Shown here: positions 1-63,599 of the stretch, in pieces
Position numbering within the stretch: position 1 is the first letter of the stretch
How the letters are laid out: every line of letters begins with the position of its first letter
Assembly: GCA_947561395.2 (NCBI GenBank)
Contig: OX387194.1
Location: forward strand, 17,036,048 to 17,100,047
Source of the DNA: Buxus sempervirens
Taxonomy: Eukaryota; Streptophyta; Magnoliopsida; Buxales; Buxaceae
DNA length: 64,000 nt
Direction: 5' to 3'
Notes under the pieces: model-generated
What the model saw: only the letters and a program-made list of their open reading frames with translations
The model's database searches: none
Told to the model about the DNA's origin: nothing
Position numbers and translations under genes: made by a program

Positions 1-90
1 TTTTTCTTTATTTGCTTCTTTTTTTGAATTGAATTGAATTGTTGGAATATTCTAGGGCTTCCAACAGGTCCTACAAAAAAAAGAAAAGGA

Positions 91-979
91 TCTGAAATTC
101 AAAGGCTTTCAGAGGCCCAAAGAAATTTTTGGAAAAAGTCTGAAATTCAAAGGCTTTCAGAGGCCCAGGGATATTTTTGGAAAAAGTCTGAAATTCAAAG
201 GCTTTCAGAGGCCTAAAGGATATGTGTCTATAATTCAGAAGCTTATAGACGGCCCAAAGAATATGTGTCTATAATTCAGAGGCTTATAGACGGCCAAAAA
301 AGGTTGTGTCTAAAATTCAAAGGCTTTTAGATGGCCCAAAGAAATGATTTGTCTAAAATTCAGAGGCTTTTAGATGGCCCAAAGAAATGATTGTCTAAAA
401 TTCAGAGGCTTTTAGACGGCCCAAAGAAATGATTTGTCTAAAATTCAGAGGCTTTTAGACGGCCCAAATGATTTGTGTCTATAATTCAAAGGCTTATAGA
501 CGGCCCAAAAAGGTTTTTGAAAAAGGTCTGAAATTCAAAGGCTTTCAGAGGCCCAAAGATTTTTTGAGAAAAAGTCTGAAATTCAAAGGCTTTCAGAGGC
601 CCAAAGGAAAAAGATCTGAAATTCAAAGGCTTTCATAGGCCCAAAGGATAAAGTCTGAAATTCAAAGGCTTTCAGAGGCCCAGAGATCTGAAATTCAAAG
701 GCTTTCAGAGGCCCAAAGGAAAAAGATCTGAAATTCAAAGGCTTTCAGAGGACCAAAGGATAAAGTCTGAAATTCAAAGGCTTTCAGAGGCCCCAAGAGT
801 TTTGAAGAAGTATGAAATTCAAAGGCATTCAGAGGCTCAAAGAGTTTTAAGAAAAAGTCTGAAATTCAAAGGCTTTCAGAGGCCCAAAGAGTTTTGAAAA
901 AGTCTGAAATTCAAAGGTTTTCAGAGGCCCAAGGAGTTTTGAGAAAAAGTCTGAAATTCAAAGGCTTTCAGAGGCCCAA
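91..979 (-). repeat. Tandem array of hairpin-forming units in the retrotransposon leader
   Basis: About 20 imperfect units of roughly 30-60 bp. Each unit is a short inverted repeat around a near-constant 9-nt loop TTCARAGGC, followed by GGCCCAAAG-like spacer. Three stem families occur: TCTGAAA/TTTCAGA (for example 91-113), GTCTATAA/TTATAGAC (267-291) and GTCTAAAA/TTTTAGAC (393-417). Both arms change together while the loop stays constant. A few units carry an unpaired change. There is no coding sense: the short open frame at 34-216 is only the array read through. Confidence 0.85.
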
Positions 980-2456
980 TGGATTTTCTCTCACATTTTA
1001 TTTATTTATTTATTTTTTTGAAGCATTTTATTCAAACTCATTTCCCTTTATCATTATTTAAAGGCTAAAAGAACAAGATTTAGTGGGAAAAACTGATTAA
1101 AATTGAATTCTCCGCAAAAACCGCATATGCAATACGGTCCGGCTTTACCCGTATTTAAATTACGAGCAAGCCGTGACCGTATAGTTAACACGGGCGAGCC
1201 TAGCCCGTGTAATAAATGCGGTTTTACGGAGCTCTTTTATGTTTTTCCAGTTTTTACATGGTTTAATCATTTTGATTGCTCATTCAAACATACGGTTCAC
1301 CCATTGCAAGGCTTCTAAACTGTCCCAAAGTGGACTTTGGCCTATTTGCAAAACATATGTCTAGGAGGGCACATGTACCCTCCAAATTGACACCATACTC
1401 AAGAATTTGGTACCCTTTTGTCGCCTCTTGTATGAACATTGGGTAGGATTGATTCTAAGCAGAGTTAGAAACTCTTCCTATGGGCTACACTACTTTTAGG
1501 AAACATGCATATTTGGGACCAATTTTATCCCGAACCAACGGGCACCAGGGCACCACTATTACATGAAAATAATGCAAAAATTAAGGTTACCTTGTTACCT
1601 TGTTTACCTTCAATATGGGATCCGCATTATGCCCTGGTTTGTAAGCCATGCAAACGGCCTTCCCTCAATTACAAACCCATATCCCCACGTAATTTTGTAT
1701 TTTAGCCAAAAACGTGTAACTTCACCTTCAAGCGTAGGGGCTTTGGGTTTTGGCTTAATGGCAACTTAGCACTCAAGCCTAGTGATGACCAGAATCAAAT
1801 CACAGATCCACGTTATCATCACATCATTGGCCCAAAGCTCTAAGGTGAATGTTTTCACTTTCACTTTTCGAAGTATCGACCTCATTGCGCCAAGCTACAT
1901 ACATTCGAGTTCAACTTCCTATAGGTTAAGGGCAGGCTGTGTAAAATATAAAATGTGCACAGTGCATTGTAAAAATTGGGTGCATTCACAACAACCCAAA
2001 CCCTTGCCACTCTTTTCGTAGCCATGCATAAACAAACCAAGGCATAATAGGAAAGCATATTTAAAGTAAACAAATACACAAAGTAGTCCCTATAGCACCT
2101 AAACATGCTCACGAAAATCATCCAATCATGCAAACAAATGATCATGTTATACAACCCAAAAACACATCATGGAGATCATGCTGAAAATTAAAACATGATA
2201 TTATAAAAATACAGCAATAAATCAGCATGGTTTAGCAAAACGAACCTCCCCTACGCATGTTTCTAGAAACAATCCTATAAATCAAAATTAAGCATGTTTC
2301 TACCCCCATCAATTCTTAAGCAATAAATTAGATGTAAAACATAACCCACATGCTTAAGAACACAAAATAGCAAGCAAAACAAAAATATACTAAAAAACAC
2401 AAAATAGCAAGCAAATAAAAAACATGAACAAACACCAAAAGGCTCAAATCCACAAG
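980..2456 (-). other. Retrotransposon leader, no gene seen
   Basis: Leader sequence between primer site and hairpin array. It contains a cluster of ACGGTCCGG/CCCGTAT-type half-palindromes at about 1118-1235, resembling those in the U3 of the related LTRs. Short open frames here lack recognisable domains and are probably chance. Confidence 0.5.
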
Positions 2457-2474
2457 TCCCCAGCAGAGTCGCCA
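2457..2474 (-). other. Primer-binding site of the minus-strand LTR element
   Basis: In minus sense this reads TGGCGACTCTGCTGGGGA, two bases inside the LTR end at 2477. The same 18 bases follow the 5' LTR of the element at 19308. The TGGCGACTC start resembles the tRNA-Arg-type sites reported for Ogre/Tat elements. That tRNA assignment is from memory of the family, not verified. Confidence 0.8.
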
Positions 2475-2476
2475 GT

Positions 2477-4285
2477 TGTGAGACATAGGAAAAAAATCAT
2501 ATTCAAATGACTTCCTGAATCACACGGGATTGGTTAAAAACACTGAGTTGCCACCATTCTGTTTAGGTGTGAATGGACACCAAAATATCAAATAAGCACA
2601 AAAGGCAAATTTACGGTTAAAATAACCCTTTAAAAAAACAACCAGAGATGGGTAAGGGGATTAGGTTATGAACAGGGGAAGGTGTTAGGCACCCCTATTC
2701 ATCCACACAAGGTGGTTCCCAGGTATTGTTCATGTTAAAATAAAGGAAAAAGGCTTGCTATAAAAATCACAAAAAAGACAAAAGTGTATGGTTTTTTCAT
2801 ACGAATAGCCTAATTGATCCAGAACTTTCAAATATGATCATACCATTCCTAGGGTTTCATGATCAAAACAGAATTGAGATGAAATCAAATAAAACCAATC
2901 TAAAGTGAAAACTTCAAAAATCTGGCTTCAAGTTAAATTCTAGAAATCTAGAAAAATATGATTTTTATGAAATATTGCAGATTTGAACTTGAATAGTCCT
3001 GGACATAGATATAACCCAGATTTCACATTAAATCAAGAAATAAAAACCAAAAATACCCACGTTGATGAAGAACATCAAAAGGGGAGAACTGAGACCGTAG
3101 GGCTTCTCTCAAAAGTAGAAAAGGACTCAAAAATCACTTCATGAAACCCTAGAAGTTACTTTCAGGCTTCTGAATCCATATCTACCATATTGATTATGAT
3201 AGATCCAGGATCTTAGCCTAATATCACAAAAATCACGAAAATAGTGCTGTAGGTGCAAAAGTGGGAAAAATCCAAATTTTAGCAAAAAGTGGGGATCTCA
3301 TGCTATGGACATCATAGATTCATATGATTCATTCATTCAACATAAAAACCATTAAAACATGATCAGGATATTCAAAATAGCCACATCTCATAGATTTGAG
3401 CACATGGGGGCCTGCCCTACGGATCCACCTGTTCTCTTTTCCCCTAGCTTTCTCTTCACGTTTTATGGCTAGAGAGGATTCTTGGGGTACTTGGAGATAG
3501 GTTTGGGTACATAAACACAATCAAAGGCTTTATTCTAAAAAAAAGGAGAAAAACAGATATGGGGTTCTATTCTAGGGATCCACCTGTTCCCCTTTCCCCT
3601 AGCTCTTTCTTCACGTTTTACGGCTAGAGAAACTCTTGAGGTACTTAGAGACAAGTTTAGGAATACAAGATAAAAGATGGCCTTATTCTACAGCAATAGA
3701 GAAGATCCTATTACTCCTAGAATTGAAGACAGAAAATAAAAAGGAAAAGGGACTTACCTGGATTGAGCAAGCAGAGCAGCAGGGATTCCTCTCTTCTCTT
3801 GGAGCTCCTTGTACTTCAAAATTTCGTGGCCTTTTGCTTGAGGAGAAGCCTTCTATTTATAGGCAAACTCAGGGGTATGGTTGGTCCAAGGTTTGGCAAG
3901 ATAGAGTTTCAGATTGAGTTAAACACAAGGATAATGCCCATCCATGGCCAACAAGGATAAATGAGATAATTCGAACAGATAAATAAGAGAATTCACTTAT
4001 CCAAGAGAGATATTTGGGTGCAGATAAGGCTCAAAAATCAAAAAGGTAAAATTCGCACAAAGACCCCCGTGTCCGTATATATATTACGGTCGCGCCCTGC
4101 CCGTATTATTAATACGGGCACGCCGTGACCGTATATCAACTGCAGGTATGACCAGACCATAAACAAAATACGGTCATGACCAATTTGGCCAGATTTTACA
4201 CTCTTTTTTTTTTTTGACCTGTTTCAAATCCCAATTAGTATTTTCAATTATTTTCTCATTTTTAGTGCAATTTGGGGTGTCTACA
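2477..4285 (-). repeat. 5' LTR, 1.8 kb, of the left element
   Basis: In minus sense the LTR starts TGTAGACACCCC at 4285 and ends CTCACA at 2477. It carries a TATA box and palindromes in its first part. Five bases CCTCC follow it at 4286-4290. They match the DUF247 coding sequence expected there, so they are the likely target duplication. The partner copy lies outside the window. Confidence 0.75.
3853..4118 (-). promoter_or_regulatory. U3 promoter region: palindromes and TATA box
   Basis: In minus sense, CTATAAATAG at 3862-3853 is a good plant TATA box. Upstream of it lie a 17-bp CCGTA..TACGG-type palindrome at about 4073-4089 and the 19-bp palindrome CCCGTATTATTAATACGGG at 4100-4118. The same ordering, palindromes then TATA box, occurs in the other two large LTR elements. 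Confidence 0.6.
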
Positions 4286-5569: not shown

Positions 5570-7566
5570 AATAAGAACCATTCGACTGTGGTTCGGCCGA
5601 ATGGATTTTCTCCTTCCTATTGCGCCCGCGAAACACGAAACGAACGAAGTTTTCAAAACTCCCTCCTTTGTCTTCTCCGATTCCTGTCGCGCTCAGACGA
5701 TTGAAATTTATTGATTTCCCCTCACGTTTGTTGGAGAAGAGAATGATTGATTTGTCCCACTGATTGCGTTTACGTTGATTAATTGTGCGAGACTGTAGAT
5801 TCAAGTGCTTCTTCTTCCCCATTTGGTTTCCATCGACCTGGCAATTCATCTAAATTTAACTGTGCAACATTGTACATTGCATTCAGGTTGATTAAATTGT
5901 CTGAAGGAGTTCATACCTGACATCTTGAGGAACTGCCCAAATTTTGGGAGCTAACGGCTTGAAGGAGTTGCTTCAGAATCGAGTTGCGCGAACGGTGAAC
6001 GTCTAAATATTTTTGAAATTGCATGGAATGAATTATTTGCTTTTTCACTATCAAGTAATCTTCAAGTGACATTGTGTTTCTTCGTTTTTTTTGTTAGTAA
6101 ACCTAAATTCTATATTCCAGATTATATTTCCAAGATTTAAGAATCTAAAAATCCTATTTAGATAAGCAAGATTATGAGGTCAGATTTGTAAACTAGAATC
6201 TAAAATGACGTTTGATTGACATTGATTATTGAGATTAAATTTGAAGTTTTTGTCTAAAAAATTGCATAAAAAATAATATAATATAATATATATAGAACAA
6301 TAAATGTCTTACTTAAAGTTGTATATATTATTATATAATATGTATCTTTTTACTTAAATATTCAAATTTATATATTAATAAAATTATATATAATATCATA
6401 TAATAATGTTATATTATGTGTATTATAATAATATTATTGTAACATTATATAATACTATTATAATATTATATAATATACGTAACAATTATAATAATTGCAC
6501 ACTTCTATAATATTATATTATATTATAATATAAATCATATTATAATAATATAATTTATGTTTATTATAGTATAAGAAATTTATTACAATCTGAAATTGTA
6601 AAATAGTATATATATTATAATATTATATTAATATAATTAAATTATTATAAATATAATATTATTAATGGCAATAAATCAATATAATATGTTTATTATATTA
6701 TAATATGTAAATCCATATAATATGAATTATTAATATTACTATATTGCGTAGGATATATTAATATATTATTATATTTTAATATATTAATATATTAAATATG
6801 ATCATATATTATAATAATATATTAAATTTATTATAATAATATATTAAATTTAATATAATATTATGATTATGAAATATGTTTATTATATTAATATAATATG
6901 AAATATTAATAATATGATATTAAATATAATATACTAATATATTAATATATTCTAATATATTACATTATAATACTTTTAACGTTATTATTTATTATAATAT
7001 GTTTTATATAATTTGTTATACATAATCTCTAAAAACACAGATTTTGGAAATTTAAGCACCAATGTCCATAATCCCTATAATCACCAAAAAAGTAGATAGT
7101 GATTATGGGCTTGATTATGCAATTGGATAGTAGAATTCGACCTTAAAATCCCAACCAAACACGGCTTTTAGATTATGTAATCAGATTCAAGTATAATCCA
7201 GATTCTATAATGCCCACCAAACACCCCCTTAGGCTTATATATTTAGTTAAGTTAGTTTCTCATTTTTAGTAATTGTCCATTTGTTATTATTATTCTTGAC
7301 TAGTGGCTTGATCATGTGCTCGTGTTTGATTAATGCTTATTTTCTTCTCCTTTTAAGTAATCCTTTATTTTATTTAATTGTTTTTTTTTGGTTCAATTTG
7401 AATGTACCATGGCTTGATCATCTTGGATGTTAATTACTTCGTGAATGTTGTTTATCCATTGTATTTGTTGGTTTTAAGAAGGACGAAACAAACCTGGCCT
7501 CTTATGATCTTTCATTTTAAGTCTGGTTATTTGCTTATACAATAATGAGGGTTTTATATGTAAACA
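5570..7566. other. MULE leader with a kilobase of AT-rich DNA; no gene
   Basis: From 5570 to about 6060 the sequence is ordinary. From about 6250 to 7020 it is almost only TA/AAT repeats. The AT-rich block is edged by GACGTTTGATTGACATTG (about 6210) and, inverted, by a GGGTGTTTGGTGGGCATT-like end (about 7230), so it may be a degenerate MITE. An AACAG acceptor-like site at 7563-7567 just before the transposase ATG suggests a 5' UTR intron, as many FAR1-family genes have. Confidence 0.45.
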
Positions 7567-7581
7567 GAAAACACAACGGAA

Positions 7582-10450
7582 ATGGATAGTGCAGAGGAAT
7601 TGTCATCTAGATCAATTGATGGCATTGAAGACACCATCGATAGGGATGTTGATGGTTTGCAAGAATCAATACAGACAGCATATTTACCAAAGATTGGGAT
7701 GGTGTTTGATTCAAAAGACGACGCACATCAGTTTTATAATGAGTATGCAAGACGAACTGGTTTCGGAACGAGAAAAGACTTACAGCACAAGCACCAACGT
7801 ACGGGCATCCTCCTGGATAGGGTTTTTTGTTGCTCAAAGGAAGGTTATCGTCGGACAGATAAAAGGGATATGGCGGTTGTAAAACATCGTGCAGATACAA
7901 GGACTGGGTGTAAGGCAAGAATAAAAATTGTATTGGAAGCGAGTGGAAAATATATAATTACACAGTTCGAGGAGGGGCATAATCATGAGTTACTTTTGCC
8001 AAGCATGGTCCATATGTTACGATCACATCGGAAAGTAACAGAGGCCCAAGCAGCTGAAATTGATCTTGCAGATTCGACAGGGATACAGCCCAAGAGAACT
8101 GTCGAAATGATGAGAAGGGAAGTAGGTGGCGTTGAATGCCTAGGATTCATGCGGGTAGACTGTCAGAATTATTTGCGGTCCAAATGTAGGGTAGCCATGC
8201 AACAGGGAGATGCAGGAGCCTTATTGGAATACTTTCAAAGAAAACAATTGGAAGATGCATCCTTCTTCTATGCCATTCAGTTAGATGAAGACGATTTTAT
8301 TAGTAACATATTTTGGGCTGACTCTGGGATGATGGCAGATTATACTTACTTTGGTGACGTGGTTTGTTTTGACACTACATATAGAACAAACAAGTATGGT
8401 AGACCATTCGGGTTATTTGTTGGTGTTAATCATCACAGACAAACCAAGATCTTTGGCGCTGCCCTATTATATGATGAAACTGTTCAGACATTCAGTTGGT
8501 TATTTGAAAGCTTTGTAAGAGCAATGTCTAGTAAGAGGCCGAAGACAATTCTCACTAATCATGACCAAGCTATGACGAGTGCAATAGCTTCGGTGCTTTC
8601 GGATACATTCCATCGCTTCTGCGTTTGGCACATGTTCCAAAACGCTGCAAAACATCTTAGCGATGTGTTTAACAGTGAGAAATCGTTTGCAAAAGATTTT
8701 AGTAGATGTGTTTACGAGTATGAAGACGAGGAGGAATTCATAGAAGCATGGAACACAATGATTAACAAATATGATTTATCCTCGAATAGATGGTTGAAAG
8801 CAAAGTTTGAGGAAAAGGAGAAATGGTCTCTGGCATACGGAAGGAACACGTTCTGTGCAAACATGAGTACGACACAAAGGTCCGAGAGCATGAATGCTTC
8901 ACTGAAAAGTCATCTACAGAGGCAAAAGGATTTATTGCGATTCTTGGGGCGCTTCGATGAATTATTGGATGATAGGTGATATGAGGAATTGAGGGCCGAT
9001 TGAGGGAAATCAAATGTTGGAATGTGCACGAAACGTCTACACAGAAGCAATCCTTGAATTAGTTTGTAAAGAAATACTTGATGGTGTCCTTAATTGTGAG
9101 ATGTATGTTTGTGGGGAAGTTGGCGGATTGGTTGAGTATAAAGTCACTAATGATGCTGAACGGAGAGTTCGTCAACATACTGTTACATTCGATCGCGAAA
9201 CTACTTCAGTCAATTGTAGCTGTAAGAAATTTGAATTCAGTGGCATATTGTGCAGTCATGCATTTTATATTCTTCGTGCTAATAGGATAAAGAAGATACC
9301 TGATCAATATATCTTGAAAAGATGGACTAAAGATGCAAATAGTGGTTTGGTTGCATATGAAGAAGGGACTATTGCTGAGGAGAACTCCAAAGCGACAATT
9401 GGGAGGAGGTTTAGAGAATTGTGTCGCAATTTTGCCCAAGCTGCAAGGAAGGCCTCACTGCATGAAGAGTCCTCTGCTTTTGGGAGTGATCTGGTTAAAC
9501 AAATTGAATGTGAGGCGAATAGAATAGTAAAAGAAAAAAACAAAGCTAGAGATATGGATGATGCATCAAGACAAGAAGGAAGTCAAAGTGAATTTGGAAG
9601 GGGGAATGTTTCACAAGCAAATTCTCAGCTAGATTGCACACTTCTAGATAGTGTTGGGGACAATAGTATTAGGGACAATGATTCTCCAGCTACCGGTGTT
9701 GACGATACGGAGATCCTTTCAAGGGCCAAAGGTATTAAAAAGAAGCTAAAGGGTGGTTGGGTTGGCTCAAGTGTTTGTAGGCAAAAAGGTGCGTTGGAAC
9801 AATCTATCAAGCGTACACAGAAGAAAGCAAAACAAGCGGTCAATGAGTCAGTAGAGGAAACCATGAACCAAACAGAGGCTGCAGCAACTTTTGGGGCGTT
9901 TACCTCTAGTAGCCAATCTACTCAGAATTCTTGCACTCCACTAACACCTTATATGAGGGATGCATTTATGATGCCTATTGCACCGATGACTCCACATACG
10001 CCAGCAGTGCAGATATACTTTACTCCATTATTTTTGTTTTGCAAACAACCCTAGTCTTGGTGTTTCTTATAAGGCAACTGACAAAATATGCAGGCATATT
10101 TTGCTTCCAACCAAATGTCACAAGGTGGTGTTGTTGATCATAGGATTTTCGCCCAGGGTATTCAAGGGAATTATGGCTTCACTCAGATGCTGCAAGTAAT
10201 AGTTCAAATTTCTTGACTCACAATCAATAATTTACAAAGTTGTAATAATAAAATTATCTTTTTTGCAGCCAGTTGTGATGTAGCATGGCAATCCACCGAA
10301 TGCAAGCACACAATGGGACAACCTACGGTATTAGTTGAATACTTCCAGTTGTGAATACTCTAACTTGCTCTTGCTGTTTCATTTTATTAAGTCACTTGTT
10401 CACTTTTCAGGTAGCGGATTCCTTCAACTTGCCCTGCCACTAAAGCAATG
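7582..10450 (+). pseudogene. FAR1/FHY3-family MULE transposase, broken
   Basis: Domain order fits a FAR1-type MURA transposase. A FAR1 DNA-binding domain spans residues about 48-137 (FYNEYARRTGF to EEGHNHEL). The MULE transposase core has FDTTY (D264) and TNHDQAM (D328). After the break, a SWIM zinc finger at about 9215-9260 reads CSCKKFEFSGILCSH. It is a DNA transposase by ancestry; host FAR1 proteins are transcription factors. Lesions: TGA at 8977-8979, where the family has Trp; a frameshift near 8990, so the remainder reads in another frame from about 9014; and TAG at 10281-10283. Exons after about 10014 are inferred (10094-10195, then 10269-10327, then from 10415). The donor near 10015 reads AT instead of GT. 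The start is the first ATG of the long frame. Confidence 0.85.
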
Positions 10451-19302: not shown

Positions 19303-19307
19303 ATTCC
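19303..19307. repeat. TSD of nested element, left
   Basis: ATTCC, repeated at 32646-32650 directly after the 3' LTR. Confidence 0.9.
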
Positions 19308-22286
19308 TGTAAGCACCTTATTTTTGCACTCCGGGAAGTGCTGAAAATAAAAACCCTGGCAGAAAGTCAAACCCCAAGGGGACAAAAAGTTGACTTTTTG
19401 GTCAAGTGAAATTTGACTACCTTGCCCTATACCATTGGATAGGGAATCCTGACACGAGTCCAACGCAACTGAGTTTCCTGGAATCGGAGTCCGAATGAAG
19501 GTTCTGTGAGCGGTCAAACTTGAGGGAAGCCCAAAAGTTGACTTTTCCTCGAACCCCGTGCCAAGTGCTTAGCCCTATGTCATTGAATAGAGGGCTCCGA
19601 TACGAGTTCAACGCAATTGAGTTTGCTCAGATCGGAGTTCAGATGAAGGAGATATGAGCTGTCGAAGTTTCCGAGCAGTAAAACCAGAAACTGCACACGT
19701 GGCGCAGGAACTGCACACGTGGCAGCCAACACAGCAAAATATCTCAGGGACTAAACCTTAAATATCCAAAAATCGCAAGGACTAAACAAAAATTCGTACG
19801 GGGCAATCCGTAGATATCCAAAAGTGTCAAATCGGTCGAATCGGTCAAATCGGTCAAGTCGAAGGGCAAATCCGTAATTTTCCGATTTGTATCCGGTCAC
19901 ATATACCGGATACACTGGCTTCCCTTCATGACCGGACTTGAAGACCGGACACATCAAGATATTCGCGCGAGATCCGCGCCGATCGCCCGACAAATCCGCA
20001 GCGGCATTTAATTTACGAATGATTGTGTTTGTATCCGGACTTGAAGACCGGATACAAAGGAGCCTTAGTGTATCCGGACTTGAAGTCCGGATACAAAGGA
20101 GCCTTAGTGTATCCGGACTTCAAGTCCGGATACATTAAGTTTGCTTATAAATAGCAAACAGCAGCTCATTTCGGGGGTTGGCTTCATTTTGCTTGGTTTC
20201 CACCCTTTCTTCTCCACTTCCCCTGGTTCGTATACCCTCCCTTCCACCTCTCCTTGCCCTCCAAAGCCCTCCTCACAACCCTCTAGGACTGTTCTACCCC
20301 TTCCTTGCTTCTTCTTCTTCATCTCCATTAAACAAAAAGCTTGGAGGGAGGACTTGGTGATCTTGGGAAGAAGCTGCTCCAGCAACTGTATTTGCCTCAA
20401 AGGGAACCTCCACATCACACAAGGGGGTTTAAAACCCCAAGGTATTGTTCCTTGACACGTCTTATTTAACATATATTAAAATGAGCATCTCTTGAGCATG
20501 ATATGATATTCTTTGTCTAAAGCATGTCTCACATGGCTGATTTGGGTTATTTCGTTTGCATGGGGGAGTATGTTCCTCCATTTTGATCATTTATCTAATG
20601 TATCCCATATTTAAAATCCCCCTTCTCCTTCCCTTCTTTGAGCTTGCATGGGTTAGGCATGAGGTATCTGGTTCTTAGGCTTGCTAGAATTCGTGGGTGA
20701 TATGTGTGATGGCCTCCTTTCCCTGTTCTTATTTTATTACTCTTTGCTATGCATGATCCCTATCCCCGTTGTACCCTTTTAGGTTTGCTTTGTTGAGGGG
20801 AACCAAGAGACCAAAACAGGGATCCATTGGTCCCTGTTTGGCTGCTATGGATGGCCAGGGGATGAGGTGGCAGCAGCCTCATCCCTCCCCCTTTACTTCC
20901 TTTGCCTTTGCTGGAAGGTCCCAAAAGAGGGCCTAAATGGGGCTTCTCCCCAACCTGCACAAACGTGGGCCCACCCAGGGGCCCACGAAATCCCTAAACC
21001 CTCCTGGGAACCCCTGGAGGCCATCCCAACTGCCGAAAACCCAAAAAAGGCCATTCCAGGGTGATCCGGTAACTCAGGCCGGATCACCAGTGGCCTGTGC
21101 GTATCCGGATACTCAGGCTGGATAACCTATGGCCCCTGTGTATCTGGATACTCGGGCCGGATTACTTGCAGAGCCTGTGTATCCGGCCTGAGTTGCCGGA
21201 TACACACAGAAAGTGCATTTTGTTCATTTTGTGACCCATGGCCAAATGTGGATGTGATTTGTGCTAAAACCATTGAACCGATAAGGTTTCCGGGTCACCC
21301 GGAAACCTGGCTAGTGATCCGGACCAACCGGTCCGACCCGGCATACTTGTGGGCCTTCCAACGGGGCCCACCAAGCCCAATGAACCAAAGCATGCTAATT
21401 GAACAAATTAAGTAAAATGAACAAATTGAACCGGGCGGGCCAAGCCCATTGTGGCCCACCCGTGCCTTGTGATATGAATGAGTGCATGAACTGTGTGGTT
21501 TGGCCGAGACTATGGGCTAGGGCCTGTCGGGCCCGCCAAAGCCTGCCAACCAAACCAAGTTCGGGCACAAGCCCTAAACTCCAAGGAACTGGGCTTCCAA
21601 AGCCCAAAGCCCGGATCTTGGGCCCCAAGCCCAATGACCAGCCTACTTTTGCAAACTAAAGGATATAAAAAAAAAATGCAAAATCACTTGGCCACCATGT
21701 GGGCCCACTCAAGGGCCCGCAAAGCTTTCCAGGCCCACTTTGGCATGAAATCCATCTAAATAATCCAACTTAAACCCTAAAGTAAAATCAATTTACTTAA
21801 GCCAAAGCCCAAAGGGCCTCTCAGGTTTAGACTGAGGCCCACCAGGGGACATGTGGGCTCAACCAAGCCCACCAAGGAATCCGCGGGCCTTCCAATGGGG
21901 CCCGCCCAATCAGGCTCACATCACTTTAAATTAAAAAGATAAAATCAAGTAAAGGGACCCACACCACTTTGGAGGTCCCGCCAGACTTAATTAAATCACA
22001 CGCTGGAATAGGAATCAGGCGAGTGAGAGACCAACTGAGTTGACTCAAACTAGGGAAATTTACGGGACCCGTCACTTGACGGGGTGGACTGGGGTGTCTA
22101 CGGACTTCCCCAGACTGCAATCGAGAACCCACTTAGATTCTCAAGCCGCAGACCAAGTCTTAGTAGAAGGACTTAGGCATCCAGGTGTCTGCCTGCACCC
22201 CATCAGGCAGTGGCGACTCCAAACAAATCCGAGGCACGCGTCGCATTGCGTGCGCCTCGTCGTGCGACCGAAATCGGGTGCGCACA
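19308..22286 (+). repeat. 5' LTR of nested gag-only element
   Basis: 2,979 bp from TGTAAGCACC to GTGCGCACA, matching 29668-32645 at an offset of 10,360. It contains palindromes and a TATA box near 20031-20153. The 3' half is rich in GGCCC and CCGGATAC-type motifs. Confidence 0.95.
20031..20153 (+). promoter_or_regulatory. U3 palindrome array and TATA box of the 5' LTR
   Basis: Three 25-bp palindromes begin at 20031, 20070 and 20109, exactly 39 bp apart. Each is built as TATCCGGACTT-N-AAGTCCGGATA (the first has one mismatch) and they are separated by AAAGGAGCCTTAGT. The TATA box TATAAATA lies at 20146-20153, 12 bp after the last palindrome. The same block recurs in the 3' LTR at 30391-30513. 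Transcription probably starts about 30 bp downstream. Confidence 0.7.
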
Positions 22287-24104: not shown

Positions 24105-24960
24105 TAGGAAATCATTTCGTGTTTCCCAAAAACAGGGACTTTCCCCAAAATCAGGAATTTTTGCCCAAGACAGGGACTTCTTCCCAAACCGGGACTACCC
24201 CCAAAAAATCAGGGACTCTTCCCCTCGCCTCTGAAGGGCAAAATCTTAGTCGAAGCCATTTCGCGCTTCCGCTAATTTGAAGCCATTTCGTGCTTCCACC
24301 AAAACTGAAACCATTTCGTGTTTCCCAATTGAAGCCACTTCGTGCTTCCCCAAATTTGAAACCACTTCGTGTTTCCGAATCCGAAGCCATTTCGTGCTTC
24401 CCCCAAATTGAAACCATTTCGCGTTTCCCAAAATCTTAGTCGAAACCATTTCGCGTTTCTGTTGCTTCCGAAACCACTTCGTGTTTCCAAAGTCCGAAAC
24501 CACTTCGTGTTTCCAAAGTCCGAAACCACTTCGTGCTTCCCCAAATTTGAAACCACTTCGTGTTTCCGAATCCGAAGCCATTTCGTGCTTCCCCCAAATT
24601 GAAACCATTTCGTGTTTCCCAAAATCTTAGTCGAAACCATTTCGCGTTTCTGTTGCTTCCGAAACCACTTCGTGTTTCCAAAGTCCGAAACCACTTCGTG
24701 TTTCCAAAGTCCGAAACCACTTCGTGTTTCCAAAGTTCGAAACCACTTCGTGTTTCCAAAGTCCGAAACCACTTCGTGTTTCCAAAGTCCGAAACCACTT
24801 CGTGTTTCCAAAATCCGAAACCACTTCGTGTTTCCAAATCCGAAACCACTTCGTGTTTCCAAAATCCAAATCGAAGCCATTTCACGCTTCCCCAAATCTC
24901 AGTAGGAGCCATTTCGTACTTCTGCTGCTTGGGAAATCATTTTGCATCTCTCCAAATTCG
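24105..24960 (+). repeat. Hairpin-unit tandem array in the leader
   Basis: About 25 units of 24-27 bp. Each has a 5-bp inverted repeat around an 8-nt loop CAYTTCGY. Stem families are GAAAC/GTTTC (for example 24470-24487) and GAAGC/GCTTC (for example 24252-24269), so the arms change in concert. One clear unpaired mixture occurs at about 24522. Long open frames on both strands here are repeat artefacts. Confidence 0.85.
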
Positions 24961-25311
24961 GTAGGAATCACTTACCCCGCAGGAATCAACTCTTGAAGTT
25001 TCTGGAGATCAAACTCAGGGACTGTCCCACTGACATGTACCAATCTTTGAAAATCAACTCTTACAGTTTCCAAAATTTGCAAAAATCAATTCTCGCAGTT
25101 CCTAAAATCAAAACAGGGACTCTTCCCTTACCTCCGAATTTGCGGTTAAAAAGGAGAATGAATAATGGAAAATCATCACAGTTAATCTACACAGACATGC
25201 ATTATATTTCATTGTAATATGCATTCTTTCTACTGACTTGTCTATTTTCCCCAAGGTACCAAGATTGCGTTTCGCAGCCCATACCTCCTACGTTCAAGAA
25301 GAAGATTACGG

Positions 25312-26889
25312 ATGGATCCTGCTGAAGGGCTCGAGCAAGCGCCACCTCTCCCACCTCATGGGCAAGAGGACTTGGAAGACCACCCTGTGATTGCTGGCCT
25401 TAATCAGCAGATAGCCAACATGACCAACATGATGACTGCCATGATGCAGCAAATGGAGAGGATGCAAGCGCCACAGCAGCTTGTACAGCCACCACCAGTG
25501 GTACCTCCCCCACAGCAGCCACCACCTCCGGCGCAACAGCCACAGCTAGAGCAGCCACCACACGCTCTCCCACAGTTGAACCAACAGCCACCAGAACCAC
25601 GGATCCCACATCGTTTGCCAGGCCAACCAGAGCAGCCCTTACAGATTCCGGCACCCCTAGCCGTACCACCACAGCAAGTAATGCCACAAGGAATGGGGCA
25701 CGACGAAGAAGAATGGTACCGAGCACGGGAAGCACCAGGTATCTCAGTCCAGGTACAAGCGGATGTGGAAATGCTAAAAGAACAGATGCGGATTGTGAAC
25801 CAAGGTCCTATACCAAAGGAAGCCTCATTGGACAGACTAGGATTCTTCCCTAATCTGCAACTTCCGCCGAAGTTTAGGTGCCCAGACTTTGTGAAATTTG
25901 ATGGAAGTGGATGCCCATTGTCTCACCTTAGGGCATACTACGGGGATATGTGCCAGTACGCCTATGATGAGAGAATCATGATCCAGTTCTTTCAGCGTTC
26001 ATTGATAGGTTCAGCTCAGAAATGGTTCACCAGTCATGACAGGAGCCAGATCAGGACTTGGGACGACTTGGCCAGCACATTTCTTGAACACTTCAAGTTC
26101 AACACGGAGGTCTTGCCCACTCGAATGGAATTGCAGAAAATGACCAAAAAGGGTACTGAATCCATGCGTGAGTATGCCAAGAGATGGCGAGAAATGGCTG
26201 GAATGGTCCAGCCACCCATGTTGGAAAAAGAGATGGTGACATTGTTCATCTCGACACTGGGGCAGCCATACTACACGTTGCTGCTGGGGCAATTTGCTAC
26301 AAGTTTTGCAGACTTGGTCGTTGTCGCAGACAGAATAGAAGATGGGGTGAGGTCTGGCAGAGTGGCTGGCTTTGCAACTGAGCAGAGAAGGACCCCTGTC
26401 AGTGGAAGGGGCATGGACAGAAAGAAAGAGGACGAAGCTGTCAACTACGTCCAACAGAATCGGCCTCTCCACCTCTCAGCACCCGACAGGAGGGAGAATC
26501 AGAATAGTGGCCAGGGGGCACAATCCGCAGGTCGGCCGAGGTGGACCAAGGAGGAATTCCAAGCAAGGTTGAGCAGGGTGTTCACACCCCTACCTTATCC
26601 CCTGTCAGAATTGCTGCCGACCCTTTTGAAGAAAGGGTACTTACAGAAGAAGTAGCCAACTCAGCAACCATCCAACAGTCGCTCCTATAACCCCAATGAG
26701 TATTGCGACTACCACATGGGAGCCCCGGGACATCATACCAATCGCTGCTGGGAACTGAAGCACGATGTCCAAGACTTGATTGACAACAAGCGTATCTCAG
26801 TCGATCCCCCAGTGTCGACTCCTCCCTCGGCCATTTTCACGGATCCTCTTCCTAACCACAATCAGGCGTCTTCAAGTGGCACCAGCTGA
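25312..26889 (+). pseudogene. Retrotransposon gag protein with one amber stop
   Basis: The frame from ATG 25312 to TGA 26887-26889 spans 525 residues plus stop. It is interrupted only by TAG at 26653-26655, where the copy at 61857-63416 has CAG (Gln). N-terminus MDPAEGLEQ; a Pro/Gln-rich segment at about 60-135; the retrotransposon gag domain with WFTSHDRSQIRTWDDLASTF and EYAKRWREMA; and a zinc-knuckle-like CDYHMGAPGHHTNRCW from residue 465. Gag builds the cytoplasmic particle that packages element RNA. Product without readthrough: 447 residues, lacking the knuckle. No pol frame follows. Confidence 0.88.
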
Positions 26890-29667
26890 ACAAGTTGGTA
26901 AGGTGCAAGGCAGAGAGCAATCCCAAAATCCAAAATCTTCAGTCCGTCGTGACTAGGATAAGTTGAACTCTACTTTTTGCACCATACATCCCTGGTAGGA
27001 GTGGTCGTTTTGTAAATATTTTAAATGCTTTTTACTTTCATGCAAGCTTTGTAAAGAACCTTTCTAAAAACACAAAAAGAAAAGAAAATACATTTTTGAA
27101 AAAATACAAGTGAGTGGTCGGTGATGACACTGCTCTGAGACCACACCCCTTTTTGGCAATGACCTCGATCATGAAAAAATGCCGAGTTACTCAAAGGTGT
27201 TTTCAGCTGGGAGCAGTACGCTGTCCCATGAGAACCTTGAATGAGCCAAAGGCAATCATTTCCTGATCCAGATCATAATTTCCCTCCTAACAACCTATCT
27301 TTGCAATAGGGTGGGGCGATCCTTGAGAGAAAAGAAAGAAAGAAAGTGAAAGTGCAAGAACCAGTTAAGGGCCAGGGCCGGCTTTAACATCAGGTCTCTA
27401 AGAAAGGAGGAGAGGCCATCCTTCATGCATCCTTGAATTTTAAGATCCGTTAGTCAAAACACTTTGGGCTTGATCGTGTTATTCAAATACCCGTGTTGTG
27501 TCTAGCCACCCACACTGGGGCAAAGCTGAAATGAAAAAATGAAAAGGATGAATAAACTCCCGAATGAATTTGCATGAACATTCCAAGTCGTCACAACTTC
27601 TGTAAAAGGATGAAAGGCCATCTTTGTTCTATTCCCTCAGTTTTCAAAGTCATATCCCTAGTCAAGCCATTTTGAGCCTAATGTTCTTTCTTTTAACCCA
27701 CTGAGTCATGAGCCCTAAAACTTGGTGCTGGGTAAGAGGAGAGAAAACAATGAATGAGCAAGAACAAAGAAGGGGAAAAGAAAGTAGAAAACACACTGGG
27801 ACTTGCTAATCAAAGCAAAAAGCCAAGTTGATCCCAGAGCAAAAGAAAAGAAAGGCAAAAATGCCAGAAAAGAAAATAAAGGTCACAAAAGACCTCACAA
27901 AGAAAAATGAAGGCAAAAAGGTATTGGCGAAGCCCCAGCAGCCAAGAAAATGGTGGAACATGACTCACCCATTTACAAAGAAACTTTGAGCCATATTCCC
28001 TTTCTTTCATGAACTAAACACCTCAGCCTTCGCTTCGTCCTATCAAAAAGTCGTTTCTGATTGTAGAAAATGTGATGATGGAATTCATGCAAGTTAATAA
28101 TGAAGGAATCTAAAAAGAAGAACGAGCTATGGCCAGACACAAAGTAAAACTTGAAAATGGAAATATAAGAACTTGAGCCTTATATCCCTTCATTTCTCAG
28201 ATTTAAAACCAAGCCAATGTTTCGTCCTTATGTAAAGACCTCTCGGATCTATGAGACATGATGCACAAGTCGGCCAAAACCTGTAAACTGGGACTGGCAC
28301 TAACCCAAGGAAAAAGGGAAAAGGGAAAAACCCTCAATTGCAAAATCCTGAAACCACCCTGGAAAAATTGGGTCAAGGTGAGAGAGAAACAAAAACTGGG
28401 AAAAGGGGAACACTCCTTGAAACACCCCTCATCTTTTGAACCTCTGGTGGCACAGGTCGAGAACCTCATGGGATTGCGTGTTGAGCACACCGTCCCGAAA
28501 CACCTCAAGCTAACAAGGCAATTCACCATGGTTGATTGGTCTCGCCTCTCTTGTAAAATCACTTGTACAAGTTTTGAAAAAAAAAAAAAAACCTTTTGGA
28601 AAATGCTTCTTTTTCAGTCGTTTGCACTTAAGTCATAAGCGCCTGCAATTTGAATGCCTCACTGCTTTGTGAGGATTTTGTAGACCCAGGCAGGGCAAAG
28701 AAGCAGAAGAAATCAAGAAGTGTCAAAAAGTCAAGAGCAGAAGAAAGGCAGAGCGGAGAAAAGCCAATGCAAGAATGCATCAACCGGGGAGTTGCGAAGA
28801 CTTCATCCGTCCCCAACGGATTCTTTTCCCCAAGCGGAGTCTCCAAGAAACCCGAAACTGTATGTCAAGACCAGGCCCAGTCTGAGGAGGCTGGTCTTGC
28901 AAAAGAAGGACCAAAGCGAGAAGGCTCCCATAGGCAAGAAAGCAAAACGGTATGGATTCCCACCAAACCCCAGTAGGGCCATCTCGAACCGGGAAGCCCT
29001 TACCTTATTGAAAACAGGGACTGGCAGAAGCATCCTTCCCCTTGGGAAAGAAGACCGTGAAAAGAAAGAACTAAAGACACTCTCATGAAGAAGAGGACAA
29101 AAAGAAGAAATCTCCGGGCAGGATGGCCCCATTTGCAAATTTTTCATTTCCCACTTTTGTAAATAGAGTAGGACAGGTGTGTGAGCTCCCTTGAGGCACC
29201 GAGCAGCGCTGAGAGCACCTCCTCACCAAGAGCATCTCCTCCTTCTTCGTTCCTTCCAATCCTTGATCCAAACCCTAAAATCTGAAGTCAAATCCCAAAT
29301 CAAAAGTCTGAAATCACCTAAAAGCTTTAATGGAACAAATAAGAGAAAGAGAAAATTGTTGAGTGCCTCGCATCGACGTCGAAACAGGTTGGTGAGCTTA
29401 AGGCCAACCCCATCCTTTTTAATCTGAATCAAAATCAGAAGTTGCTCCCAGAAGCCCGAAGTGGGTGAGCAAGCTTCGAAATCTTAGTGGAAACCATTTG
29501 GTGTTTTCACTACTTTGGAGATCAATGCTTGTCGTCTCCAACCCCATTGAGAACACATGAGGATTTAAGCTCATCAATCACGTCAACCGAAGTGCTGGGC
29601 GCAAAAACAAGGTTCTTCTTTTTCTTTGTCGTTCATCCCCAAGGTGACTCCAGCAAAGAGGGACTGC
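26890..29667 (+). other. 3' non-pol region and polypurine tract of nested element
   Basis: 2.8 kb where pol would be expected, with no protease, RT, RNase H or integrase motif. It is recognisably conserved with the 3' region of the element at 59305-61856, for example the block around 28240-28260 and the GFPPNPSR-encoding stretch near 28957. The purine-rich GCAAAGAGGGACTGC directly before the 3' LTR is the likely polypurine tract. Confidence 0.7.
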
Positions 29668-32645
29668 TGTAAGCACCTTATTTTTGCACCCCGGGAAGTG
29701 CTGAAAATAAAAACCCTGGCAGAAAGTCAAACCCCAAGGGGACAAAAAGTTGACTTTTTGGTCAAGTGAAATTTGACTACCTTGCCCTATACCATTGGAT
29801 AGGGAATCCTGACACGAGTCCAACGCAACTGAGTTTGCTGGAATCGGAGTCCGGATGAAGGTTCTGTGAGCGGTCAAACTTGAGGGAAGGCCAAAAGTTG
29901 ACTTTTCCTCGAACCCCGTGCCAAGTGCTTAGCCCTATGTCATTGAATAGAGGGCTCCGATACGAGTTCAACGCAATTGAGTTTGCTCAGATCGGAGTTC
30001 AGATGAAGGAGATATGAGCTGTCGAAGTTTCCGAGCAGTAAAACCAGAAACTGCACACGTGGCGCAGGAACTGCACACGTGGCAGCCAACACAGCAAAAT
30101 ATCTCAGGGACTAAACCTTAAATATCCAAAAATCCCAAGGACTAAACAAAAATTCGTACGGGGCAATCCGTAGATATCCAAAAGTGTCAAATCGGTCGAA
30201 TCGGTCAAATCGGTCAAGTCGAAGGGCAAATCCGTAATTTTCCGATTTGTATCCGGTCACATATACCGGATACACTGGCTTCCCTTCATGACCGGACTTG
30301 AAGACCGGACACATCAAGATATTCGCGCGAGATCCGCGCCGATCGCCCGACAAATCCGCAGCGGCATTTAATTTACGAATGATTGTGTTTGTATCCGGAC
30401 TTGAAGACCGGATACAAAGGAGCCTTAGTGTATCCGGACTTGAAGTCCGGATACAAAGGAGCCTTAGTGTATCCGGACTTCAAGTCCGGATACATTAAGT
30501 TTGCTTATAAATAGCAAACAGCAGCTCATTTCGGGGGTTGGCTTCATTTTGCTTGGTTTCCACCCTTTCTTCTCCACTTCCCCTGGTTCGTATACCCTCC
30601 CTTCCACCTCTCCTTGCCCTCCAAAGCCCTCCTCACAACCCTCTAGGACTGTTCTACCCCTTCCTTGCTTCTTCTTCTTCATCTCCATTAAACAAAAAGC
30701 TTGGAGGGAGGACTTGGTGATCTTGGGAAGAAGCTGCTCCAGCAACTGTATTTGCCTCAAAGGGAACCTCCACATCACACAAGGGGGTTTAAAACCCCAA
30801 GGTATTGTTCCTTGACACGTCTTATTTAACATATATTAAAATGAGCATCTCTTGAGCATGATATGATATTCTTTGTCTAAAGCATGTCTCACATGGCTGA
30901 TTTGGGTTATTTCGTTTGCATGGGGGAGTATGTTCCTCCATTTTGATCATTTATCTAATGTATCCCATATTTAAAATCCCCCTTCTCCTTCCCTTCTTTG
31001 AGCTTGCATGGGTTAGGCATGAGGTATCTGGTTCTTAGGCTTGCTAGAATTCGTGGGTGATATGTGTGATGGCCTCCTTTCCCTGTTCTTATTTTATTAC
31101 TCTTTGCTATGCATGATCCCTATCCCCGTTGTACCCTTTTAGGTTTGCTTTGTTGAGGGGAACCAAGAGACCAAAACAGGGATCCATTGGTCCCTGTTTG
31201 GCTGCTATGGATGGCCAGGGGATGAGGTGGCAGCAGCCTCATCCCTCCCCCTTTACTTCCTTTGCCTTTGCTGGAAGGTCCCAAAAGAGGGCCTAAATGG
31301 GGCTTCTCCCCAACCTGCACAAACGTGGGCCCACCCAGGGGCCCACGAAATCCCTAAACCCTCCTGGGAACCCCTGGAGGCCATCCCAACTGCCGAAAAC
31401 CCAAAAAAGGCCATTCCAGGGTGATCCGGTAACTCAGGCCGGATCACCAGTGGCCTGTGCGTATCCGGATACTCAGGCTGGATAACCTATGGCCCCTGTG
31501 TATCCGGATACTCGGGCCGGATTACTTGCAGAGCCTGTGTATCCGGCCTGAGTTGCCGGATACACACAGAAAGTGCATTTTGTTCATTTTGTGACCCATG
31601 GCCAAATGTGGATGTGATTTGTGCTAAAACCATTGAACCGATAAGGTTTCCGGGTCACCCGGAAACCTGGCTAGTGATCCGGACCAACCGGTCCGACCCG
31701 GCATACTTGTGGGCCTTCCAACGGGGCCCACCAAGCCCAATGAACCAAAGCATGCTAATTGAACAAATTAAGTAAAATGAACAAATTGAACCGGGCGGGC
31801 CAAGCCCATTGCGGCCCACCCGTGCCTTGTGATATGAATGAGTGCATGAACTGTGTGGTTTGGCCGAGACCATGTGCTAGGGCCTGTCGGGCCCGCCAAA
31901 GCCTGCCAACCAAACCAAGTTCGGGCACAAGCCCTAAACTCCAAGGAACTGGGCTTCCAAAGCCCAAAGCCCGGATCTTGGGCCCCAAGCCCAGTGACCA
32001 GCCTACTTTTGCAAACTAAAGGATATAAAAAAAAATGCAAAATCACTTGGCCACCATGTGGGCCCACTCAAGGGCCCGCAAAGCTTTCCAGGCCCACTTT
32101 GGCATGAAATCCATCTAAATAATCCAACTTAAACCCTAAAGTAAAATCAATTTACTTAAGCCAAAGCCCAAAGGGCCTCTCAGGTTTAGACTGAGGCCCA
32201 CCAGGGGACATGTGGGCTCAACCAAGCCCACCAAGGAATCCGCGGGCCTTCCAATGGGGCCCGCCCAATCAGGCTCACATCACTTTAAATTAAAAAGATA
32301 AAATCAAGTAAAGGGACCCACACCACTTTGGAGGTCCCGCCAGACTTAATTAAATCACACGCTGGAATAGGAATCAGGCGAGTGAGAGACCAACTGAGTT
32401 GACTCAAACTAGGGAAATTTACGGGACCCGTCACTTGACGGGGTGGACTGGGGTGTCTACGGACTTCCCCAGACTGCAACCGAGAACCCACTTAGAATCT
32501 CAAGCCGCAGACCAAGTCTTAGTAGAAGGACTTAGGCATCCAGGTGTCTGCCTGCACCCCATCAGGCAGTGGCGACTCCAAACAAATCCGAGGCACGCGT
32601 CGCATTACGTGCGCCTCGTCGTGCGACCGAAATCGGGTGCGCACA
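29668..32645 (+). repeat. 3' LTR of nested gag-only element
   Basis: 2,978 bp, about 99.6% identical by eye to 19308-22286, followed by the target duplication ATTCC at 32646-32650. Confidence 0.95.
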
Positions 32646-42243: not shown

Positions 42244-42498
42244 TGATGGAAGAACAAAAGATGAACAGGGGGAGCACTTCTCTCCTTCTCTCTGTGTTCT
42301 ATTAAAATAAAAATATTGTTGCTACCATATCCAAGTAATTCCCTTGGTACATAACAGAGCATTACAAAGGAATTCCAAGCATTACTCCTAGGTAAACATC
42401 AATCCTAGGAACTCTAACAAAAGAGAGCAAAAGCAATAAATGGCAGTTTCTTGAAAAACAGCAGCATTTATAATTCTGGAAACACAGCAACTTTAATA
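42244..42498 (-). repeat. Copia 3' LTR
   Basis: 255 bp, in minus sense from TATTAAAGTTGC to TTCTTCCATCA. It is preceded in minus sense by the purine tract ATCAAGGAGGAG. The start is TA rather than the usual TG. Confidence 0.88.
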
Positions 42499-45400: not shown

Positions 45401-46464
45401 CACATCCTGACCTTAGACTTAATGGAAGGATCAAGCATAGTGAAGCTGGATTTGTCATATGCCATATGATTGCTGCACCCACTATCAATAAACCAGGTGT
45501 CATTGACATCTTTCATAGCAACTTGGCAAGCAAAGAATAGCTGCTCCGAGTCTTCTTCAGAATAGTTGGCATGGTGTTCTTTTTCTTTAAATCTACAATC
45601 TTTTTCTTTGTGTCCAAACTTCTTGCAGATTGTGCACCGGGGTTTCCCTTTGTGCCAGCAATCTTTCTCAAGATGATTAGTCTTCTTACAGATACCACAA
45701 GGTGGAAAAGTACCTAATGAAGTACCTTGTTTTTCCTTTCCTTTGTTGCTGATATTCTTCTATGAAGAATCTCCTTTGGTGTAAACCTTCTTCGTCTTTT
45801 GATATCCAGATTTCTGATTTTTTATATTGACTTTCGATTGGAAAGCATTTTCCAGTGAATCTCCATTTCTTCTACTCAATCTTTGCTCTTGTGCTTGTAG
45901 TGAACCCATCAATTCTGTTACTGTTAGAGTTGACAAGTCTTTTGATTCCTCTATAGCAGCAACAACATGATCATATTTTTCTGTGAGAATAATTAAGAAT
46001 TTCTGAGCAACTCTTTGCTCTGAGATGTCTTCTCCATAAGCCCTCATCTGATTTACAACCTCAATAACTCTGGTGCTATAATCCTTAACATTCTCAGAGT
46101 CCTTCATCTTGAGATTCTCCATTTCTCTTCTCAAGTTCTGAAGTTTGATGGTCTTCAACTTTGAGTTTCCTTGAAATTCTTCCTGTAGAATATCCCATGC
46201 CTTCTTGGATGTTTCAGCTCTCATAAGCCTAGGAAAAATAGCATCACTCACTGCTTGTTGAATTACGAAAAGAGCCTTAGCATCCTTCTGTTCTTGCTTC
46301 TTTTTTTCAGTTATATCAACAGCATCTTCTGCAATTGTTGGTACTCCATTTTCTACCACATCCCATAGATCTTGTGATAGAAAAAATGTCTTCATCTTGA
46401 TGCTCCAGTAATCATAGTTGTCTCCTCTGAAAACTGGAACTGCAGTTGATTGAACAGCAGCCAT
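42493..46464 (-). pseudogene. Copia gag-pol polyprotein, one frame with seven stops
   Basis: From ATG at 46464 to TAA at 42495-42493 the frame spans 1,324 codons without any frameshift. Domains in order: copia gag (VFRGDNYDYWSIKMKTFF); CCHC zinc knuckles near 45700-45610; protease IDSGCSNHM; gag-pre-integrase LWHQRFGHYN; integrase (CGPM, DDFTRMNW, SDRGTEY, TPQQNGVSERKNR); reverse transcriptase (KWIYKKKLN, QLDVKSAFLNG, LYVDDL); RNase H (GFTDSDFAGS, STAEAEYVA, YCDSKSA). In-frame stops lie at 45760-45762, 45400-45402, 45274-45276, 44539-44541, 44377-44379, 43324-43326 and 42619-42621. Several look like CAG/CAA to TAG/TAA or TGG to TAG. It cannot make a full polyprotein now. Confidence 0.92.
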
Positions 46465-46488
46465 TGTTGACCCTTTGCAAATCGACCA

Positions 46489-46500
46489 GCTCCGATACCA
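46489..46500 (-). other. Copia primer-binding site
   Basis: In minus sense TGGTATCGGAGC, one base after the LTR end; one mismatch from the usual initiator tRNA-Met complement TGGTATCAGAGC. Confidence 0.85.
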
Positions 46501-46501
46501 C

Positions 46502-46756
46502 TGATGGAAGAACAAAAGATGAACAGGGGGAGCACTTCTCTCCTTCTCTCTGTGTTCTATTAAAATAAAAATATTGTTGCTACCATATCCAAGTAATTCC
46601 CTTGGTATATAACAGAGCATTACAAAGGAATTCCAAGCATCACTCCTAGGTAAACATCAATCCTAGGAACTCTAACAAAAGAGAGCAAAAGCAATAAATG
46701 GCAATTTCTGGAAAAACAGCAGCATTTATAATTCTGGAAACACAGCAACTTTAATA
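46502..46756 (-). repeat. Copia 5' LTR
   Basis: 255 bp, the near-identical partner of 42244-42498. In minus sense it ends CATCA directly before the primer site. Confidence 0.88.
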
Positions 46757-63416: not shown

Positions 63417-63599
63417 TTGGAGTTTTCTTCTTGAACGTAGGAGGTACGGGCTGCGATACGCAATCTTGGTACCTTAATGAACAAAAAGACAAAAATTAGT
63501 ATAAAGAATTCATATTTCATCAAAATATAATGCATGTTGATGCATGCCAATGACTTTTTGATTTGATTGATTTTTACTTAATTGATTTTTTTTTTTTTT

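Follow-up and report, generated by a model that had tools for sequence, protein, structure and literature searches.

A tandem array of 21 short hairpin-forming units lies at positions 91 to 979 of the stretch of Buxus sempervirens DNA analyzed here (the window: 64,000 nucleotides of contig OX387194.1, assembly GCA_947561395.2, positions 17,036,048 to 17,100,047 of the forward strand), in the 5' leader of a Ty3/gypsy long terminal repeat (LTR) retrotransposon whose sense strand is the minus strand. The position and strand of the array, its modular structure, and the conservation of its arms and loop while its spacers drift are demonstrated here. Something probably keeps the hairpins, because arms and loop are much more conserved than the spacers or the flanking leader, and these sequence patterns suggest some role for the hairpins on the RNA of the element. 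More specifically, the array may provide cis-acting RNA hairpins on the unspliced leader of a gag-only element, acting in packaging or retention; we put this forward tentatively, as a possibility that falls short of probable.

Parsed unit by unit, the 21 repeats span positions 91 to 972, and every one is a palindrome able to fold into a hairpin with nine loop bases. Two units, at 615 and 811, have a broken 7-bp stem and the other 19 a perfect one; the loop TTCA[AG]AGGC is likewise present in 19, with variants at 227 and 903. An earlier description made from the letters alone (the sequence-only reading) had reported about 20 tandem units sharing TTCARAGGC in a leader, and both the number and the placement in a leader hold. 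Three stem classes occur: class 1, TCTGAAA/TTTCAGA, in 14 units (including the two broken stems); class 2, TCTAAAA/TTTTAGA, in four; and class 3, TCTATAA/TTATAGA, in three. Along the plus strand, three units of class 1 are followed by two of class 3, four of class 2, one of class 3, and then eleven of class 1. The arms do switch together, as had been claimed, but in two paired substitutions visible in the window (G-C/A-T and A-T/T-A) rather than three; an eighth, outer G-C pair forms in 5/7 class-2/3 units and 0/14 class-1 units, and this difference is therefore one-sided, not a paired change. Because TTCARAGGC matches again inside the class-1 3' arms (TTTCAGAGGC), a plain motif count is inflated. 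A single hairpin of another kind, TGTTGGAA-N11-TTCCAACA, identified partly by inspection, stands between the array and gag (40 to 66, minus strand).

The sequence-only reading had recommended looking for the same array in other genomic copies, and these exist: in a search of 676 Mb in 247 contigs the array recurs at about 40 places (40 of 2118 candidates having been scored), and 40 arrays were fetched, ten with long flanks and thirty with 0.3-kb flanks, and parsed. The copies have one element in common, whose right end in the window is position 4285. Two LTRs of about 1.8 kb frame it in three copies, 99.3, 99.6 and 99.9% alike, and the boundaries taken from copies with such LTR pairs place the 5' LTR at 2477 to 4285 (minus strand). 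The 5' LTR is followed, 2 nt on, by a primer-binding-site-like sequence, TGGCGACTCTGCTGGGGA (2457 to 2474, minus strand); the corresponding TGGCGACTCTGCTGGGG stands at that distance from the LTR in each of the three copies inspected, and elements A and B, described below, have a similar site. About 1.5 kb separate this site from the array start, and about 0.2 kb separate the array end from gag in locus L018, where the minus strand beyond the array carries an open reading frame (ORF) with the Gag domain PF03732; the corresponding ORF of locus L014 is on the matching strand. The sense strand of the element is taken as minus because the primer-binding-site-like sequence and the gag ORF are both on it. 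Named gag relatives are plant proteins (46 listed; the best among those listed, from Tetracentron, is 41% identical).

Paired LTRs, a primer-binding-site-like sequence next to the 5' LTR and a Ty3-type gag are all present, as in a Ty3/gypsy LTR retrotransposon. In the one focal copy examined for coding capacity (L018 1-3400, L021 6145-8000), no ORF longer than 159 amino acids lies between gag and the 3' LTR, none of the three L021 ORFs tested has a pol domain, and the element accordingly showed no reverse transcriptase and integrase of its own in that copy. Judged by these features, the array host is a gag-only (non-autonomous) Ty3/gypsy LTR retrotransposon with minus-strand sense, its lack of pol being read from that single copy; we take it to be comparable to the elements known as TR-GAG. 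The Tat/Ogre lineage is recognized by reverse transcriptase phylogeny and an extra RNase H domain, and the focal copy inspected has no reverse transcriptase to compare.

The unequal conservation inside a unit is stronger evidence than the covariation of its arms. Parsing reduced 1713 motif matches to 1083 primary units, of which 1072 were classed and 11 set aside, the remaining matches being taken as the second match inside class-1 arms. Within arrays, class-1 units differ at 0.024 per site in the hairpin and at 0.383 in the spacer (1915 sampled pairs); when only substitutions between units with equal-length spacers are counted, the corresponding values are 0.025 and 0.187 for class 1, and 0.016 and 0.114 for class 2. 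Between copies, class-1 hairpins differ at 0.0255, compared with 0.116 for the 220 nt of adjoining leader (39 copies). The units are regularly spaced, with few gaps, in the 40 loci, and this conservation is therefore not solely an effect of the motif search. Further, loops are about as invariant as arms, in a search that allowed one loop mismatch at most, and so sequence and pairing may both matter. Selection, or a mechanism preserving structure, had been suggested from the window; the preservation is borne out, hairpins being far more conserved than spacers or leader, but covariation does not lend it independent support.

Hairpin arrays also stand before the gag genes of related elements. Array A (24252 to 24911, plus strand) precedes the gag of element A (Retrotrans_gag by domain search; 25312 to 26655, plus strand), whose LTRs are at 19307-22286 and 29667-32645. 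Over 375 residues, the Gag proteins of element A and the focal element share 40% identity. The array has a paired arm switch of its own, with GAAGC/GCTTC or GAAAC/GTTTC enclosing CAYTTCGY; 23 of the 24 core units are fully paired, with one A.C hybrid at 24526, and four outlying units are imperfect or depend on wobble pairs. Here too the hairpin diverges less than the spacer (0.087 vs 0.449). Array B (63700 to 64000, minus strand, continuing in locus L059 at 1-510) consists of ACCTCCGAAGTGGCGGT units whose outer arms vary, many units being imperfect, and stands before the gag of element B (Retrotrans_gag by domain search; 61857 to 63416, minus strand), whose product is 45% identical to the focal Gag over 344 residues. 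Both the A and B proteins match PF03732, and PF19259 below its cut-off. The leaders of A and B are 75% alike for about 1.6 kb from the region of the LTR end and 83% alike just before gag, and despite these alignable leaders the two arrays are built of different hairpins; one B-like hairpin is found in element A at 25130-25147. In a fourth family, at locus L015, three tandem TGTTGGAA/TTCCAACA hairpins (oriented positions 7925-8110, by inspection) are visible before its AG/GTACCA, and this is the hairpin that the focal element carries once, at 40-66. The A, B and L015 arrays differ at a matching position, and amplification in these related leaders has thus acted on different hairpins at a single place. 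The L015 leader is itself interrupted by an insertion of a focal element. Over 8 nt, the array A loop (CCACUUCG) is the exact reverse complement of the array B loop (CGAAGUGG); kissing between the RNAs of the two families through these loops may occur, and a chance match is also possible.

Across the 40 focal copies, perfectly paired 7-bp stems are found in 919 of 1083 units and are of four types only: TCTGAAA (525), TCTAAAA (277), TCTATAA (111) and TTTGAAA (6). The last, TTTGAAA/TTTCAAA, was seen outside the window copy; four of its six units share one common kind of flank, and the two in class-1 flanks may represent separate double changes. Perfect class-1 and class-2 stems occur in all 40 arrays and class-3 stems in 39, and since the classes are common to the copies fetched, they are older than those copies. 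Arrays hold 14 to 48 classed units as fetched; the class-2/3 block is flanked by class-1 blocks in 39/40 arrays and is distinct in 39/40 copies. Class 2 and class 3 differ in their 5' spacers, indicating that units spread as modules together with those spacers. Genome-wide, a pattern covering classes 2, 3 and their hybrids gave 6852 exact matches, compared with 0 for a reversed control; among the 100 matches listed, 99 were paired and one was a hybrid, and in the parsed arrays class-2/class-3 arm hybrids make up 2/1072 units. Exchanges between a 5' spacer and the left arm likewise seem infrequent among the flanks listed; units thus move as modules, and the scarcity of hybrids does not amount to evidence that they are avoided.

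Several results weigh against the reading of the array as working RNA hairpins, and they concern the history of the arms, folding, strand and the spacers. When all columns of the 332 distinct units are used to build a tree, every class change falls once in each arm, on neighboring branches, and rare half-changed units attach there as intermediates. The evidence therefore consists of three matched changes, not some twenty. Covariation reduces to these few events and is non-significant on this tree: no pair exceeds the expected number of same-branch changes, the count being 0, also with other tie-breaking. With non-stem columns alone, the tree placed 19 changes of one pair on the same branch (expected 2.4; 0/2000 simulations), a result not counted because classes 2 and 3 are poorly resolved by such columns. 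In all, the matched changes are few and of old date: three in the past of the focal family and one in array A. The sequence-only reading had taken matched changes, occurring three times, as independent evidence, to be checked by a phylogeny-aware covariation test; with classes common to 40 copies, single events on the unit tree and no pair above expectation, that claim as originally stated was overstated, and the stem classes come down to the two or three events that it had itself named as an alternative. Its other alternative, inversion of whole units as the source of matched arms, was rejected, there being 0 inverted exact loop motifs in the 40 loci.

Several folding results also count against the RNA reading. 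Single focal units are weak in sense orientation (-5.1 to -6.1 kcal/mol), and the commoner array A unit is weaker still (-1.7 kcal/mol). The proposal that the leader be folded gave little for the focal array, which is not markedly better than its shuffles on either strand: z is -1.2 in sense, with 2/20 shuffles folding as well or better, and -1.0 in antisense, with 3/20. The stems of A and B alone are no better than chance (77/300 and 87/300 shuffles as good), and the pairing probability of array A ranges from 0.0 to 0.95 over 24 units, about half falling below 0.35. Selection on the sense strand through G.U wobble was considered and dropped: pooled, transitions leaving G.U in sense number 61 cells and those leaving A.C 51, with no clear strand bias, and nothing is made of the lean in classes 2 and 3 (20 G.U vs 3 A.C) because class 1 shows none (41 vs 48). 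In addition, spacers at the first two array positions differ by 0.18-0.20 between 27 anchored copies, more than the adjoining leader, and so part of the spacer excess may reflect mutability or shuffled units. On the other side, array A as a whole (z -2.8, 0/20 shuffles as good) and the L059 part of array B (z -2.3, 1/100) are moderately better than their shuffles, and local partition functions for the 913 perfect class-1, class-2 and class-3 units give stem pairing in sense and antisense of 0.32 and 0.15 for class 1, 0.40 and 0.31 for class 2, and 0.88 and 0.56 for class 3.

If function is left aside, the hairpins might persist through mutation. Template switching by fold-back, either in reverse transcription or when DNA is replicated, would copy one arm from the other and keep the loop, while slippage between units expanded the array; such hairpins would be self-repairing and prone to amplification, with no function. 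This is a serious rival, although we consider it somewhat unlikely. The available part of PMC8794818 describes template-switch events that fix stems without altering loops, and the two-sided stem changes around a constant loop resemble those seen here, although the hairpins treated there come from rRNA and microRNA histories and the focal case is a tandem array in a retroelement. The wide range of array sizes and the distinctness of nearly all class-2/3 blocks would fit, as would the A-T to T-A change between classes 2 and 3, which if made stepwise needs a mismatched intermediate of the kind seen in only the two hybrids. Yet template switching gives no reason for loops to be about as invariant as arms, and some such events would be expected to leave inverted loops, of which the 40 loci hold none. 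Many one-sided changes have also gone unrepaired: class-1 arm changes comprise 121 one-sided cells vs 7 two-sided (6 of them paired), where about 2 two-sided are expected, and the one-sided changes in present copies look like neutral decay after insertion.

Plain tandem duplication is the simplest account, in which an AU-rich 7-bp palindrome happened to lie in an amplified unit and is neutral. Chance stems of this quality are indeed common for class 1, with 64/300 dinucleotide shuffles as good (300 per unit), as for A and B above, and the spread of units as modules with their spacers and the small number of covariation events are what duplication would give. Shuffles are as good far less often for class 2 (4/300), class 3 (2/300) and the GAAGC form of array A (21/300). 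Neutral duplication does not lead spacers to diverge 7 to 16 times as much as the hairpins they accompany, nor does it account for hairpin arrays at a matching leader position in A, B and the L015 family (three visible copies there); and the best stems of eight other tandem arrays in the window, outside leaders and LTRs, are at chance level (64 to 300 of 300 shuffles as good). We regard it as disfavored and very unlikely.

The second serious rival, which we judge unlikely, places the function in DNA: each unit would be a dyad-symmetric site for a host DNA-binding protein, or the array a cluster of cis-regulatory palindromes. Equal conservation of loop and stem would also suit a double-stranded DNA site, and this counts further against RNA. 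Conserved sites separated by variable AT-rich spacers are also the design of the Drosophila gypsy insulator, which the available text of PMC2374998 describes as 12 conserved short sites in AT-rich sequence of the 5' untranslated region. Those sites are bound as DNA by the zinc-finger protein Su(Hw) and have a TGCATA core, whereas the focal units are hairpins with matched arm changes, and TGCATA occurs 0 times on either strand within 91-979. Clusters of short palindromes in the non-coding DNA of plant LTR retrotransposons, likely to form hairpins, are known from Sireviruses and are called cis-regulatory in the parts available of PMC2829016 and PMC10760457; the Sirevirus clusters have a CGG-CCG core and lie in the LTR or near ENV, unlike the focal stems, which lack that core, are AU-rich and stand before gag in a Ty3/gypsy element. 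In maize, according to the available part of the latter source, Ty3 elements are generally without an obvious peak of such structures (PMC10760457). A fixed protein would not need both half-sites to change together, as both the focal family and array A show them doing; moreover, the half-sites are unrelated between related families, and the array lies about 1.5 kb downstream of the LTR rather than within it. Family-specific tandem arrays are likewise found in the Retand elements, non-chromovirus plant Ty3/gypsy elements, but between pol and the 3' LTR as far as the consulted portion of PMC11963269 describes them, while the focal array lies between primer-binding site and gag and its units are hairpins.

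For the RNA reading, the array would be transcribed from the minus strand as a run of hairpins in the 5' leader, which could serve as multiple sites for Gag or a host protein, marking the RNA for retention and packaging. Retroviral packaging signals comprise several different leader hairpins near or downstream of the splice donor, and are thereby enriched on unspliced RNA. Those are a handful of different hairpins, whereas the focal arrays hold 14 to 48 copies of one, with a putative packaging role. A comparable arrangement may exist here. An acceptor-like AG/GTACCA (the slash marking the candidate junction) lies ahead of gag, 0.2-0.4 kb past the array, in 9/10 focal loci, variants included, as well as in both A and B (AG/GTACCAAG; AG at 25254 to 25255, plus strand, and 63473 to 63474, minus strand), preceded in sense by a branch-point-like CACTGAT, TACTGAC or TACTAAT and a U-rich tract; the L015 family also has AG/GTACCA with a U-rich tract. 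Upstream, the focal leader carries a triple cluster of donor-like AAG/GTAA sites (1585 to 1610, minus strand), about 0.85 kb after the LTR, which, scored with a donor weight matrix, are intact in 10, 8 and 8 of 10 focal copies.

We infer that the hairpins may lie inside a leader intron running from the donor-like triplet to AG/GTACC, and would then be present on unspliced genomic RNA only and absent from spliced gag mRNA. That this step is a guess from splice-like motifs is a weakness of the RNA reading, as is the finding that A and B share a donor-like CAA/GTATGT at about 1.3 kb, elsewhere than the focal site. The leader intron would itself be worth confirming because, according to the available part of PMC1142308, reports of LTR retroelements with an intron ahead of gag were lacking as of 2005. 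In related families such arrays would be made anew at that spot, each time from a different amplified hairpin. In its fullest form, which we consider distinctly doubtful, the own amplified hairpin of each family of non-autonomous Ty3/gypsy elements in this plant would be a renewable signal in an unreported pre-gag intron, carried by unspliced RNA only and competing for packaging, with hairpin form and place kept while the sequence is replaced.

The remainder of the window holds retroelement genes and MULE/FAR1 transposase-like ORFs by domain search, and no Rfam family matches anywhere in the window at gathering score. Short tandem palindromes occur in or near LTRs (20030-20134, 30390-30494, 21064-21162, 31424-31546, 4073-4134 and 58538-58616), some far stronger than the leader units, such as a 13-bp stem at 20030 (0/300 shuffles as good). 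The MULE/FAR1 ORFs, at 7582-8979 and 9014-10054 (PF10551, PF03101, SWIM), are neighbors of an extended AT-rich repeat (6357-7000). At 42244-46756 the minus strand carries ORFs for Ty1/copia gag and integrase, with a 255-bp direct repeat, 98% alike, at 42244-42498 and 46502-46756.

What seems new is the placement in the leader, together with the matched changes of the arms and the exchange of one hairpin for another between related families. No hairpin array in a plant Ty3/gypsy leader turned up among the papers listed from the open-license literature, in searching only partly aimed at that, which is slender evidence of novelty. To our knowledge, how plant LTR retrotransposons separate the RNA used for translation from the RNA that is packaged is poorly understood, and so is the route by which the RNA of gag-only elements enters particles. 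A hairpin array that exists in thousands of natural variants within a single genome, together with the different hairpins of related families at the matching place, would make both questions testable. It is also a test bed for asking whether matched stem changes arise through selection or through template switching.
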